Assembly: GCF_022346005.1 (NCBI RefSeq)
Contig: NZ_JAKRMY010000005.1
Location: forward strand, 62,001 to 126,000
DNA length: 64,000 nt
Direction of reading: 5' to 3'
Source: Corynebacterium sp. ACRPS
Lineage (GTDB): Bacteria; Actinomycetota; Actinomycetes; Mycobacteriales; Mycobacteriaceae
How positions within the stretch are numbered: the first letter of the stretch is position 1; each line of letters begins with the position of its first letter. Both the position numbers and the translations under genes were made by a program. Below are positions 5,210-8,360 of the stretch, one piece after another. The notes beneath the pieces were generated by a model, which made no database searches, was not told the origin of the DNA, and saw only the letters and a program-made list of their open reading frames with translations.

Positions 5210-6622
5210 TTAGAGGTTGATCATGTGGCCGCTGATACCTTCGGCGGCTTCCTTCATGGCCTCAGACAAGGTCGGGTGGGTGTGTACGTTGCGGCCGATT
5301 TCCTCAGTGGTCAGGTCGAAACGCTGCGCCAAGGTCAACTCAGGCAAGAGCTCCGAAACATTGGAGCCCACCATGTGTCCGCCGATGAGCTCGCCGAACT
5401 CGCCGTCAGCAATAAGCTTCACAAAGCCGGCGGTCTCATTCAGGCCGGCTGCCTTACCGTTTGCGGAGAACGGGAAGGTAGCAACCTTGATGTCCTTATC
5501 CGGGAACTTCTCCTTGGCTGCCTCTTCGGTGTAACCGAAGGATGCAACCTGCGGGTTGCAGAAGGTAGCGCGCGGCATGTTGTTGTAGTCACCCAAGAAT
5601 TGGGTTTCTGCATCAGCAATGGTTTCTGCCGCTACAACGCCCTGCGCCTCTGCCACGTGGGCCAGCTGCAGCTTCGCGGTGACGTCACCGATGGCGTAAA
5701 TGTGGTCAACGTTGGTGCGCATCCGGTCATCGATGTCGATGGCACCGCGCTCAGTCAGCTCAACGCCGGTGTTCTCAAGGCCAAAGCCCTCAACGCGCGG
5801 GGCAAAGCCGATGGAGATCATGGCGCGATCCACGGTCAAGGTGTCCTGCTTGGAGCCATCCTTGGATTCCACCTCAACGGTGACATCGTCGCCGTTGTCC
5901 TTTACAGAGGTGGTCTTGTAACCGGTCAGGAGCTTAACGCCGAGCTTCTTGTACTGCTTGGCAATCTCCTTGGATACGTCCTTGTCCTCGTTCGGCAGGA
6001 CGCGGTCCATAAACTCCACGATGGTAACGTCCACACCGTAGTTGGCCAGCACGTAAGCAAACTCCATGCCGATCGCGCCGGCGCCCACGATGACCATGGA
6101 CTTCGGTGCTTCCTCGTTCAGGATCTGCTCCTCATAGGAGACGATATTGCCGCCGAGCTCAACGCCAGGCAGGGACTTGACCACGGAGCCGGTGGCGATG
6201 ATGCAGTCATCAAAGGTAACGGTCTTACCTTCGTCATCGCCCTCAGTAATCTCAATGGTCTTATCGTCCTTGAAGGAACCCAGACCGTTGATCTCGGTGA
6301 TCTTGTTCTTCTTCATCAAGTAGTGAACGCCCTTGACGATGCCCGAAGAAACCTTGCGGGAGCGCTTGTGGGCTACACCGAAATCAAAGGAAACATCGCC
6401 GGAGATGCCAAAAGCCTTCGCCTCGTGGTTGAAGGTGTGGGCAACCTCTGCATTCTTCAGCAGCGACTTGGAGGGAATACAGCCTACGTTGAGGCAGACT
6501 CCGCCCCAGTACTGCTTTTCAATAACAGCGACTTTCTTTCCAAGCTGAGCTGCACGGATGGCGGCAACGTAGCCGCCAGGGCCCGCACCGAGTACTACTA
6601 CGTCATAATGTTCGTTAGTCAC
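5210..6622 (-). CDS. lpd: Dihydrolipoamide dehydrogenase (E3)
   Basis: FAD enzyme that reoxidises dihydrolipoamide with NAD+ in the pyruvate and 2-oxoglutarate dehydrogenase complexes. The 470-residue product shows the FAD motif [20 protein letters not shown] at residues 9-28 and the redox-active disulfide in [13 protein letters not shown]. The NAD motif is [20 protein letters not shown], the second FAD motif is IYAIGDVT, and the catalytic histidine is in [14 protein letters not shown] near the C-terminus. The start is a GTG at 6622. A TATCCT box 7 nt upstream suggests a leaderless transcript. The gene stands alone, converging on ramB. Confidence 0.97.
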
Positions 6623-6711: not shown

Positions 6712-6766
6712 AAGGGCCCTGCAAGGGGGCATCGGCAAGCAGCAGATACACCTCCGCAGGGCCCTT
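6712..6766 (-). terminator. Strong hairpin terminator after the 36-residue peptide gene
   Basis: Perfect 11-bp inverted repeat AAGGGCCCTGC (6712-6722) / GCAGGGCCCTT (6756-6766). It begins 14 bp beyond the stop of the 36-codon gene and lies between it and the start of lpd, insulating the two. Confidence 0.75.
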
Positions 6767-6780
6767 AAGCAATCTTGGAC

Positions 6781-6891
6781 TTAAATCACGCCCAAGGATG
6801 CTAGCAGCTTGGAATATGCATCCATTGCAGAGTGGATGAATGGCCCAATGAATTCATTGAAGGACACGAGGGCGGAGTCAAAAAGGTTCAT
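6781..6891 (-). CDS. 36-residue acidic/hydrophobic peptide, porin-like (PorA/PorH type)
   Basis: A short ORF starting with ATG at 6891: MNLFDSALVSFNEFIGPFIH, then a 16-residue rest ending KLLASLGVI. It has no signal peptide. Hydrophobic residues (Phe, Ile, Leu, Val) alternate with Asp, Glu, Asn, Ser and Lys in a way that fits an amphipathic helix. Corynebacterial outer-membrane channels PorA and PorH are of this kind: 40-57 residues, acidic, without a signal sequence. Support for a real gene is a purine-rich AGAAAGAAC before the ATG and a strong terminator right after the stop. A secreted mycolyltransferase lies next to it, and PorA/PorH are known to be mycoloylated. Function is inferred; a toxin-like or regulatory peptide is possible. 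Confidence 0.6.
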   Translation of the reverse strand: MNLFDSALVSFNEFIGPFIHSAMDAYSKLLASLGVI

Positions 6892-7280
6892 TGAAGTTCT
6901 TTCTCTTGATGGGGCGCGAGTAGACAATCTCGCTGCTTAGCTTTTCACACTAAAAGCACTAACGCAGCCGTTACTGATGTTATTACAGGTGTGTTATTAC
7001 AGGTGCCAACCGCGTCACGCCGTGCTTCATTGGGAAATTATGACATAGAAACCTCAGTTGTCCCAGCGTTACTTATTATTGATAGCAGAAAAGGCAATGA
7101 AGGTATGCCTACCCCCACTATTCCCCCACATCAGTGAAAGTCTTTACCGCCAGGCGTTTATTGGGCACTATTAATGGTTAGGTCTACATGTAGGAATACT
7201 AAATATACTTCCCTCAACATGCCGATTTTTCGCGGCCGAAGTATAGTTATCGAGTCCACTCCCTACAGGAAAGAAGCACC
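6892..7280. other. 389-bp divergent spacer with tandem repeat
   Basis: AT-richer space between the 36-codon gene (leftward) and the mycolyltransferase gene (rightward). It contains two copies of GTTATTACAGGTG (6979-6991 and 6993-7005, period 14), about 90-115 bp upstream of the 36-codon gene. I see no further coding ORF. It presumably holds both promoters. Confidence 0.5.
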
Positions 7281-8360
7281 ATGAAGCGTCTCAATTCTGT
7301 CCTCGCGGCAGCTGCGGTTTGCACGGGCTTGGCTTATGCCCCCGTGGCAGGCGCGGCCGAGCTGACCCCGCAGCAGGTGGCGGGCGATGCCGCACAGTCC
7401 ACGATTTCCCCGCTGGAGCCTACCCCGGAAATCGAGGGTAAGTCCTGGTACAAGAAGTACAAGGACGATGCGCGCGTTGAAAAGCTCGAGGCAACCTCAC
7501 CGGCAATGAATGACCGGAAGATTCCGCTAGCCGTCATCCGCGCCAAGAGCGAAAACCGCCCAACCATTTACCTGCTCAATGGCGCAGGCGGGGCAGAACA
7601 AGACATGGATTGGCTGAAGCTTTCTGATGCCGTTGATTTCTACCACTCGAAGGACGTCAACGTCGTCGTCCCGCAGGCCGGCGCTTTCTCCTACTACACC
7701 GACTGGATCTCTGAGCCGAATTCGGGCTTCCTCAAGGGACCACAAAAGTGGGAGACCTTCTTGACCAAGGAGCTGCCGGGGGCCATCGAGAAGCACATCA
7801 ATGCCGATAACCACCGCGCCATCGCGGGCATGTCCATGTCCGCCACCTCTTCCTTGCTGCTAGCTCAGCACAACCAGGGCTTCTACGATGCAGTGGGCTC
7901 ATACGCCGGTTGTGCCGCTACCGCTTACCCGCTGGAGCGCCAGGCCGTAGAGCTGACCGTCAACCGCGGCGGCGGCAGCGTGGACCAGATGTGGGGCCCG
8001 TACGGCTCTGAGACCAACCGTTACAACGACGCCATGATGAACGCCGATAAGCTGCACGGTACCGAGCTATACATTTCTTCCGGTTCCGGCCTGGCAAGTG
8101 AAGAGGACACTTATAGCTACCTGCGCTCTATGGGTCTGGACCAAGAAGATGCCATCCGTGGGTCTTCTACCCTGCAGGTTGAGGGCGGCGGCATCGAAGC
8201 TGGGGTGAACTACTGCACCCACAACTTCAAGGCCAAGCTTGACCAGGCCGGAGTGCCAGCCACCTACAACTTCCGCAATACCGGAACCCACTCGTGGCCG
8301 CACTGGAAAGAGGATCTGAAGGATTCTTGGCCAGTATTCGAGCGGGCATTCAATAGCTAA
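7281..8360 (+). CDS. cmt: Secreted trehalose corynomycolyltransferase (antigen 85 family)
   Basis: Envelope enzyme that moves corynomycolates between trehalose and acceptors in the outer membrane. The 359-residue product has a clear signal peptide (KRLNSVLAAAAVCTGLAYAP, cleavage after AGAA or nearby) and an alpha/beta hydrolase fold. The nucleophile serine is in GMSMSATSS near residue 190, following IYLLNGAGG for the oxyanion region. The catalytic histidine is in GTHSWPHW near the C-terminus. The length is that of the short Cmt types without a C-terminal LGFP extension. A ribosome site GGAAAGAAG precedes the ATG. Which acceptor (trehalose, arabinogalactan or porin) it serves cannot be read from the sequence. 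Confidence 0.9.
   Translation: MKRLNSVLAAAAVCTGLAYAPVAGAAELTPQQVAGDAAQSTISPLEPTPEIEGKSWYKKYKDDARVEKLEATSPAMNDRKIPLAVIRAKSENRPTIYLLNGAGGAEQDMDWLKLSDAVDFYHSKDVNVVVPQAGAFSYYTDWISEPNSGFLKGPQKWETFLTKELPGAIEKHINADNHRAIAGMSMSATSSLLLAQHNQGFYDAVGSYAGCAATAYPLERQAVELTVNRGGGSVDQMWGPYGSETNRYNDAMMNADKLHGTELYISSGSGLASEEDTYSYLRSMGLDQEDAIRGSSTLQVEGGGIEAGVNYCTHNFKAKLDQAGVPATYNFRNTGTHSWPHWKEDLKDSWPVFERAFNS

Follow-up and report, generated by a model that had tools for sequence, protein, structure and literature searches.

Does the spacer between lpd and a divergent mycoloyltransferase gene in Corynebacterium hold a further gene, and if so what might its product do? The window, by which we mean the whole stretch of 64,000 nucleotides analysed, carries lpd, for dihydrolipoyl dehydrogenase (positions 5210-6622, minus strand), and a mycoloyltransferase (cmt) gene at 7281-8360 on the plus strand. 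A preliminary description had placed between these neighbours an overlooked gene for a porin-like peptide of 36 residues, equipped with its own terminator. We consider the reality of the gene, its partners, its expression signals and the probable nature of its product.

A conserved gene of 36 codons

The reading frame lies where it had been described in the spacer, at 6781-6891 of the minus strand (MNLFDSALVSFNEFIGPFIHSAMDAYSKLLASLGVI), and runs for 36 codons from ATG to TAA. A longer frame of 48 amino acids, starting with TTG at 6927, overlaps it; the start in 30 aligned relatives is the ATG at the position equivalent to 6891. The window reads AAGAGAAAGAACTTCA-ATG and most of the 30 aligned starts are preceded by AGAAAG, a Shine-Dalgarno-like region located at approximately 6897-6904 (minus strand). 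Across the larger collection of 165 loci described below, such a sequence precedes 150 of 159 assignable starts, where 29.6 would be expected at random places. In 109 of these loci model position 1 is itself a start codon; in 50 the start is shifted by one to five codons and in six none was found, so the true N-terminus is variable or uncertain in distant members. The stop is TAA in 119 loci, TAG in 34 and TGA in 12, and the distance from model position 1 to the stop is 36 codons in 148 of 155 loci.

A tblastn search with the 36 residues matched 97 of 242 Corynebacterium genomes at E values up to 10, the weak end of which we do not trust. All 30 matches that were fetched as loci adjoin lpd and a cmt gene, the interval at which the preliminary description had suggested looking, and all 30 have an open ATG-to-stop frame of 36 codons. 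In a set of 80 named loci selected by lpd similarity alone, an iterated HMM found the peptide in 39 of 48 Corynebacterium loci and in none of 32 others, with a wide gap between the weakest accepted match (E 1.6e-7) and the one ranked after it (3.4). In additional regions located by the position of lpd the peptide was present in 86 of 99 cases (L135-L233) and in 10 of 14 (L240-L253). This larger set has a less clear boundary: the weakest accepted match has an E value of 5.9e-6, and L251 (0.0011) and L247 (0.039) lie just outside. The 165 matched loci include the 30 picked for having the peptide; we caution that species recur between sets and that related species are present, so the counts are of loci rather than species and are not independent.

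The family appears confined to part of the genus. A search of 301 genomes gave no match under E 0.046 outside Corynebacterium. Six named loci, among them that of C. jeikeium, contain a cmt gene but gave no match to the peptide upstream of lpd, and a search 5' of lpd in two C. jeikeium genomes did not find it. Neither peptide nor cmt gene occupies the lpd place in C. lactis and C. amycolatum, two species only, which are described as being without mycolates (PMC8733736). One genome, G001, has a second match about 15 kb from its intact copy (G001:C1:284740-284836), split between two frames that cover residues 1-13 and 17-33, and this looks like a decayed duplicate.

The preliminary description had offered a test that could remove the gene, namely conservation of the frame with synonymous-biased changes. 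The frame is kept, and pN/pS within three close groups is 0.34, 0.27 and 0.19. Over the whole family spread, in which the synonymous sites look saturated, the ratio is 0.67. Single-pair ratios are mostly non-significant; that for the window against L006 has P 0.0004. With frame, length and neighbourhood all conserved, the 36-codon ORF is established as a real gene, kept over much of Corynebacterium far beyond chance.

Is it already known? The 36-residue peptide alone matches nothing in Pfam, NCBIfam or the PDB sequences; with 32 family members NCBIfam again gives no match and Pfam five scattered weak ones, the best at E 0.034. Among the matches listed from full-text searches of an open-access library there is no account of the peptide. 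These comparisons suggest an undescribed small protein that matched no known family. The C. glutamicum ORF may nevertheless bear a locus tag, possibly cg0440, a tag that occurs in the name of a deletion in PMC7533341. It may also be among the eight small mRNAs of PMC4046766.

Pairing with a Cmt1-type mycoloyltransferase

Both neighbours are what the preliminary description had taken them for. The downstream gene matches TIGR01350, and the closest named lpd found, that of C. macginleyi, is 98% identical to it. On comparison with PDB sequences the mycoloyltransferase is closest to C. glutamicum Cmt1 (E 1e-108, against 8e-36 for PS1), and database matches and a tree place it in the Cmt1/MytC type. 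The window genome has three mycoloyltransferase matches and the only Cmt1-type enzyme among them is the one paired with the peptide.

Upstream of the peptide gene 157 of 165 loci have a divergent cmt gene, which is 0.13-2.2 kb away (median 0.4 kb) and not necessarily the immediate neighbour. Of the eight loci without one, five have the peptide less than 0.5 kb from the end of the fetched piece; the remaining three are L135, from C. glutamicum, L172 and L186. In a tree of 77 sequences from the 80-locus set, the smallest clade that unites C. glutamicum Cmt1, the window enzyme and all 39 named partners excludes the five further C. glutamicum enzymes, though its node support is only 0.47. It also includes 28 enzymes that lack a peptide partner, and several species have an unpaired copy as their nearest relative of the window enzyme. 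In many species (L045-L083) two tandem Cmt1-type genes are situated 1.5-5 kb upstream of lpd, and in different clades the peptide pairs with different copies of the two.

The other neighbour invites a different explanation, that the frame is a leader peptide or upstream ORF controlling lpd. The arrangement in the window and in many loci would suit this, with the peptide gene on the same strand and about 160 nt 5' of lpd. In 14 of the 39 named loci, however, the gap to lpd widens to 1.4-3.5 kb with a further mycoloyltransferase gene in between, whilst the cmt partner is kept. In genome G012 a weak match (E 0.03) lies beside cmt about 14 kb from lpd. The loci where a cmt gene separates peptide from lpd contradict a leader function, which we reject as scarcely credible.

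The enzyme type is informative with respect to possible substrates. PorA is mycoloylated in vitro by Cmt1/MytC and the modification of PorA, PorH and ProtX needs that enzyme, as described in PMC11927696 and PMC5310785; modification of PorA and PorH by Cmt1/MytC is also covered in PMC3792995, PMC11927696 and PMC12632848.

Signals around the gene and the C. glutamicum P2lpd promoter

A candidate sigma-D-type promoter precedes the gene at the family motif position (6958-6986, minus strand). It consists of GTAATA (6986-6981), 17 nt and GTTAGT (6963-6958), an imperfect copy that fits only a relaxed form of the family pattern. That pattern, GTAAC[AG]-N17-G[TC]T, is present upstream of the peptide in 43 of the 123 non-redundant regions. 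The GTT/GCT form of its -10 element at spacing 17 was set after enriched 7-mers and PMC6338062 had been seen, so the count does not amount to a blind test, and its controls are shuffles (mean 0.5, maximum 2 in 30), the opposite strand (3) and the spacings from 12 to 22 other than 17 (0-6). The strict pattern is missing in the other 80 regions, and also in the window and in C. glutamicum; C. glutamicum fits the relaxed form only and L005, L084 and L192 fit neither. Plain -10 motifs are not enriched upstream of the peptide, and the first sigma-D pattern used, with GAT as the -10 element, is rare there (5 of 123, against 0.9 in shuffles). No GTAAC-GAT promoter was conspicuous on the cmt strand, where GTAAC with G[TC]T at spacing 17 occurs in five of 111 regions (shuffle maximum 3). 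These results do not establish a shared two-way sigma-D promoter.

The preliminary description had noted a 13-bp direct repeat in the promoter zone. The repeat is there and overlaps the candidate -35 element, but it measures 14 bp (TGTTATTACAGGTG, present twice in tandem at 6978-7005, each copy containing GTAATA) and is not conserved: L002 and L003 have a single copy, L006 a remnant and L005 none. We have rejected it as a conserved regulatory element and regard it as a local duplication. Further upstream, TGTCATAAT (7037-7045, minus strand) represents a motif enriched before the peptide gene in many loci; TGTCATA is found on the peptide strand in 37 of 123, where about 1.6 would be expected. 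It may be an extended -10 element, a second promoter or a regulator site.

On the other side of the gene a hairpin at 6712-6766 (minus strand) begins 14 nt past the stop, with perfect 11-bp arms AAGGGCCCTGC and GCAGGGCCCTT (6712-6722 and 6756-6766). The segment 6690-6783 of the minus strand folds with -40.2 kcal/mol (z -3.6). L002, L003 and L006 retain the hairpin, and in L005 it is degenerate. Of 165 loci, 31 have a hairpin with a stem of seven or more and a T-run after the stop, where shuffles give 2.4, and by this rule most of the loci show none; C. glutamicum has a strong hairpin with a T-run. The idea of a dedicated terminator holds in part: the window hairpin would make a plausible terminator, but a proper T-tract is missing and a simple terminator scan did not call it.

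A link to published work comes from C. glutamicum (G065), where the orthologue, MPIHEQIIFFINEILGYGLHAGSSAFSNLSHSIGLF, occupies positions 1919-2029 of locus L135 and lpd starts at 2193. A sigma-D promoter with GTT as the -10 element, P2lpd, is reported in PMC6338062 as mapping 360 nt before the lpd start codon, which puts its transcription start at 1833. CTAACG-N17-GTTAGT occupies 1798-1826, and the distance from the P2lpd start downstream to the ATG of the peptide is 86 nt. From these positions we infer that P2lpd drives the peptide gene. The place is the same, but the passages on P2lpd in PMC6338062 treat it as a promoter of lpd or of a potential small RNA and not of a protein gene; our analysis offers an alternative reading of that published promoter. 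The sigma-D genes given in PMC6338062 include cmt1, and those in PMC11175481 porH, cmt1 and protX.

Could the transcript instead be a small regulatory RNA in which the reading frame is an accident, as the small RNA suggested in PMC6338062 might encourage one to think? The conserved amino acids, near-constant length, frequent Shine-Dalgarno-like sequence (150/159) and synonymous bias all speak against it, and the window locus has no Rfam family at threshold and one sub-threshold fragment. We judge this explanation highly improbable.

The product and the mycomembrane

The peptide had been described as acidic, hydrophobic, without a signal and plausibly amphipathic, and its composition bears this out. 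The net charge is -2, the GRAVY value 0.86 and the hydrophobic moment 0.33, compared with 0.12 in shuffles (P 0.0004); 96% of 114 distinct family members are amphipathic at P<0.05. By inspection it lacks a signal. AlphaFold2, run with 32 members, predicts a single amphipathic helix over residues 3-33 (best model pLDDT 95.6, five models 72-96). Small mycomembrane proteins without a signal are about 36-60 residues long, acidic and form an amphipathic helix, features that the peptide shares.

All 114 distinct 36-mers have Gly16; 109 have an acidic residue at position 5 and 113 have Asn, Ser or Thr at position 12, while His20 is present in 102 and position 27 is Ser or Ala in all. Residues 23 and 24 are both serine in 96, and 113 have a serine somewhere within 21-27. 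In the clade of the window HSAMDAYS replaces the usual H.GSS.SS, with Ser21 and Ser27 kept. On the helix, conservation is biased towards a face at 56 degrees (P 0.018) that points away from the hydrophobic side at 282 degrees, and the conserved residues 5, 12, 16, 20, 23 and 27 share a face.

How does the peptide compare with known mycomembrane peptides? Its size, charge and hydropathy are similar to those of ProtX and PorA. ProtX of C. glutamicum (cg2875, 38 residues) has the same size, acidic and hydrophobic make-up, amphipathicity and lack of a classical signal, and is likewise under sigma-D, the promoter of the new peptide being a candidate. ProtX is, however, encoded at another locus, shows no sequence match and is mycoloylated on the penultimate Ser37, where the new peptide has no serine; a test for homology of the family to ProtX detected none. 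PorA and PorH are also small, helical and without a signal. They too have no sequence match with the peptide, hhalign of the 32-member profile against single sequences giving probabilities below 1%, and they are encoded between groEL2 and ppk2. That locus was considered as a home for the peptide gene and rejected, since the lpd-cmt interval is elsewhere and the window genome has its own porH (59 amino acids) and porA (43 amino acids) between groEL2 and ppk2 (L043, G000:C33:129900-131500). The new peptide is therefore an additional one. By description it can be likened to PorACj of C. jeikeium, also a single short helical peptide, which according to PMC3792995 has 40 residues, is a homo-oligomer and is thought to form a pore alone; PorACj belongs to the groEL2-ppk2 locus, and C. 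jeikeium is a species in which we did not find the new family 5' of lpd.

The proposed porin role thus survives in part. A conserved, acidic and hydrophobic, amphipathic small protein linked to a Cmt1-type enzyme fits it, but homology to PorA, PorH and ProtX is missing and the classical pair sits elsewhere. Our preferred explanation, to which we would give a probability of about 60%, is that the peptide is a microprotein of the PorA/PorH/ProtX kind that resides in the mycomembrane, is expressed under sigma-D and probably serves as a substrate of Cmt1. In its favour we count the conservation of family and synteny, purifying selection, the predicted amphipathic helix with conservation biased to a face, the pairing with Cmt1-type genes, the modification of PorA, PorH and ProtX by Cmt1 and the candidate sigma-D promoter, cmt1, porH and protX being sigma-D genes. 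Against it we count the missing homology, the absence of the usual GSS serines from the window clade, the six named loci that have cmt and lack the peptide, the tree support of 0.47, the 80 of 123 regions without the strict promoter motif and the absence of the peptide from the O-mycoloylome table of PMC11066868. That study used digested proteins; the C. glutamicum orthologue (L135:1919-2029), for which a mass near 3.96 kDa is computed, contains neither lysine nor arginine, so that trypsin-based proteomics could miss it.

On this explanation we infer export, mycoloylation, a mycomembrane location and channel formation as follows. The peptide would be made together with other envelope genes of the sigma-D, envelope-stress response, would leave the cell with no classical signal, as PorA, PorH and ProtX do, and would form one amphipathic helix. 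The neighbouring enzyme would O-mycoloylate it on a serine around residues 21-27. Once in the mycomembrane several copies, or copies with a partner, might form or shape a channel, with residues 5, 12, 16, 20, 23 and 27 providing a packing or lumen face.

The same pairing with Cmt1-type genes could mean that the peptide is a partner or assembly factor and not a porin, binding Cmt1 or porins and, when the envelope is stressed, aiding lipidation, transport or insertion. According to the authors of PMC11175481, the assembly pathway is expected to include sigma-D members yet to be identified, and adapter proteins for Cmt1 are raised in PMC11066868. Nothing specific opposes such a role, but size, charge and amphipathicity suit the known mycomembrane peptides at least equally, and we think it unlikely, if worth keeping in mind.

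The open questions set out in PMC12632848 and PMC11175481 include the route by which small proteins without a signal arrive at the mycomembrane and the sigma-D genes that assist them. The peptide gene is a specific, conserved gene beside a lipidating enzyme in most loci examined, and it is present in the laboratory model C. glutamicum. More tentatively, and at a little under even odds, we suggest that Corynebacterium at large has Cmt1-coupled, sigma-D-switched microproteins that either take part in assembling mycomembrane proteins or make up one more class of mycoloylated channel peptides, with an mRNA so far read as an lpd transcript or a small RNA.

Small amphipathic helices are often antimicrobial, surfactant or toxin-like, and the peptide might be secreted or membrane-active in such a way, including as the toxin of a toxin-antitoxin pair. 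Besides the general frequency of these roles, one family member weakly matches a bacteriocin family of Pfam (E 0.15). A single copy in a fixed place beside cmt, purifying selection and a sigma-D-type promoter make this improbable.
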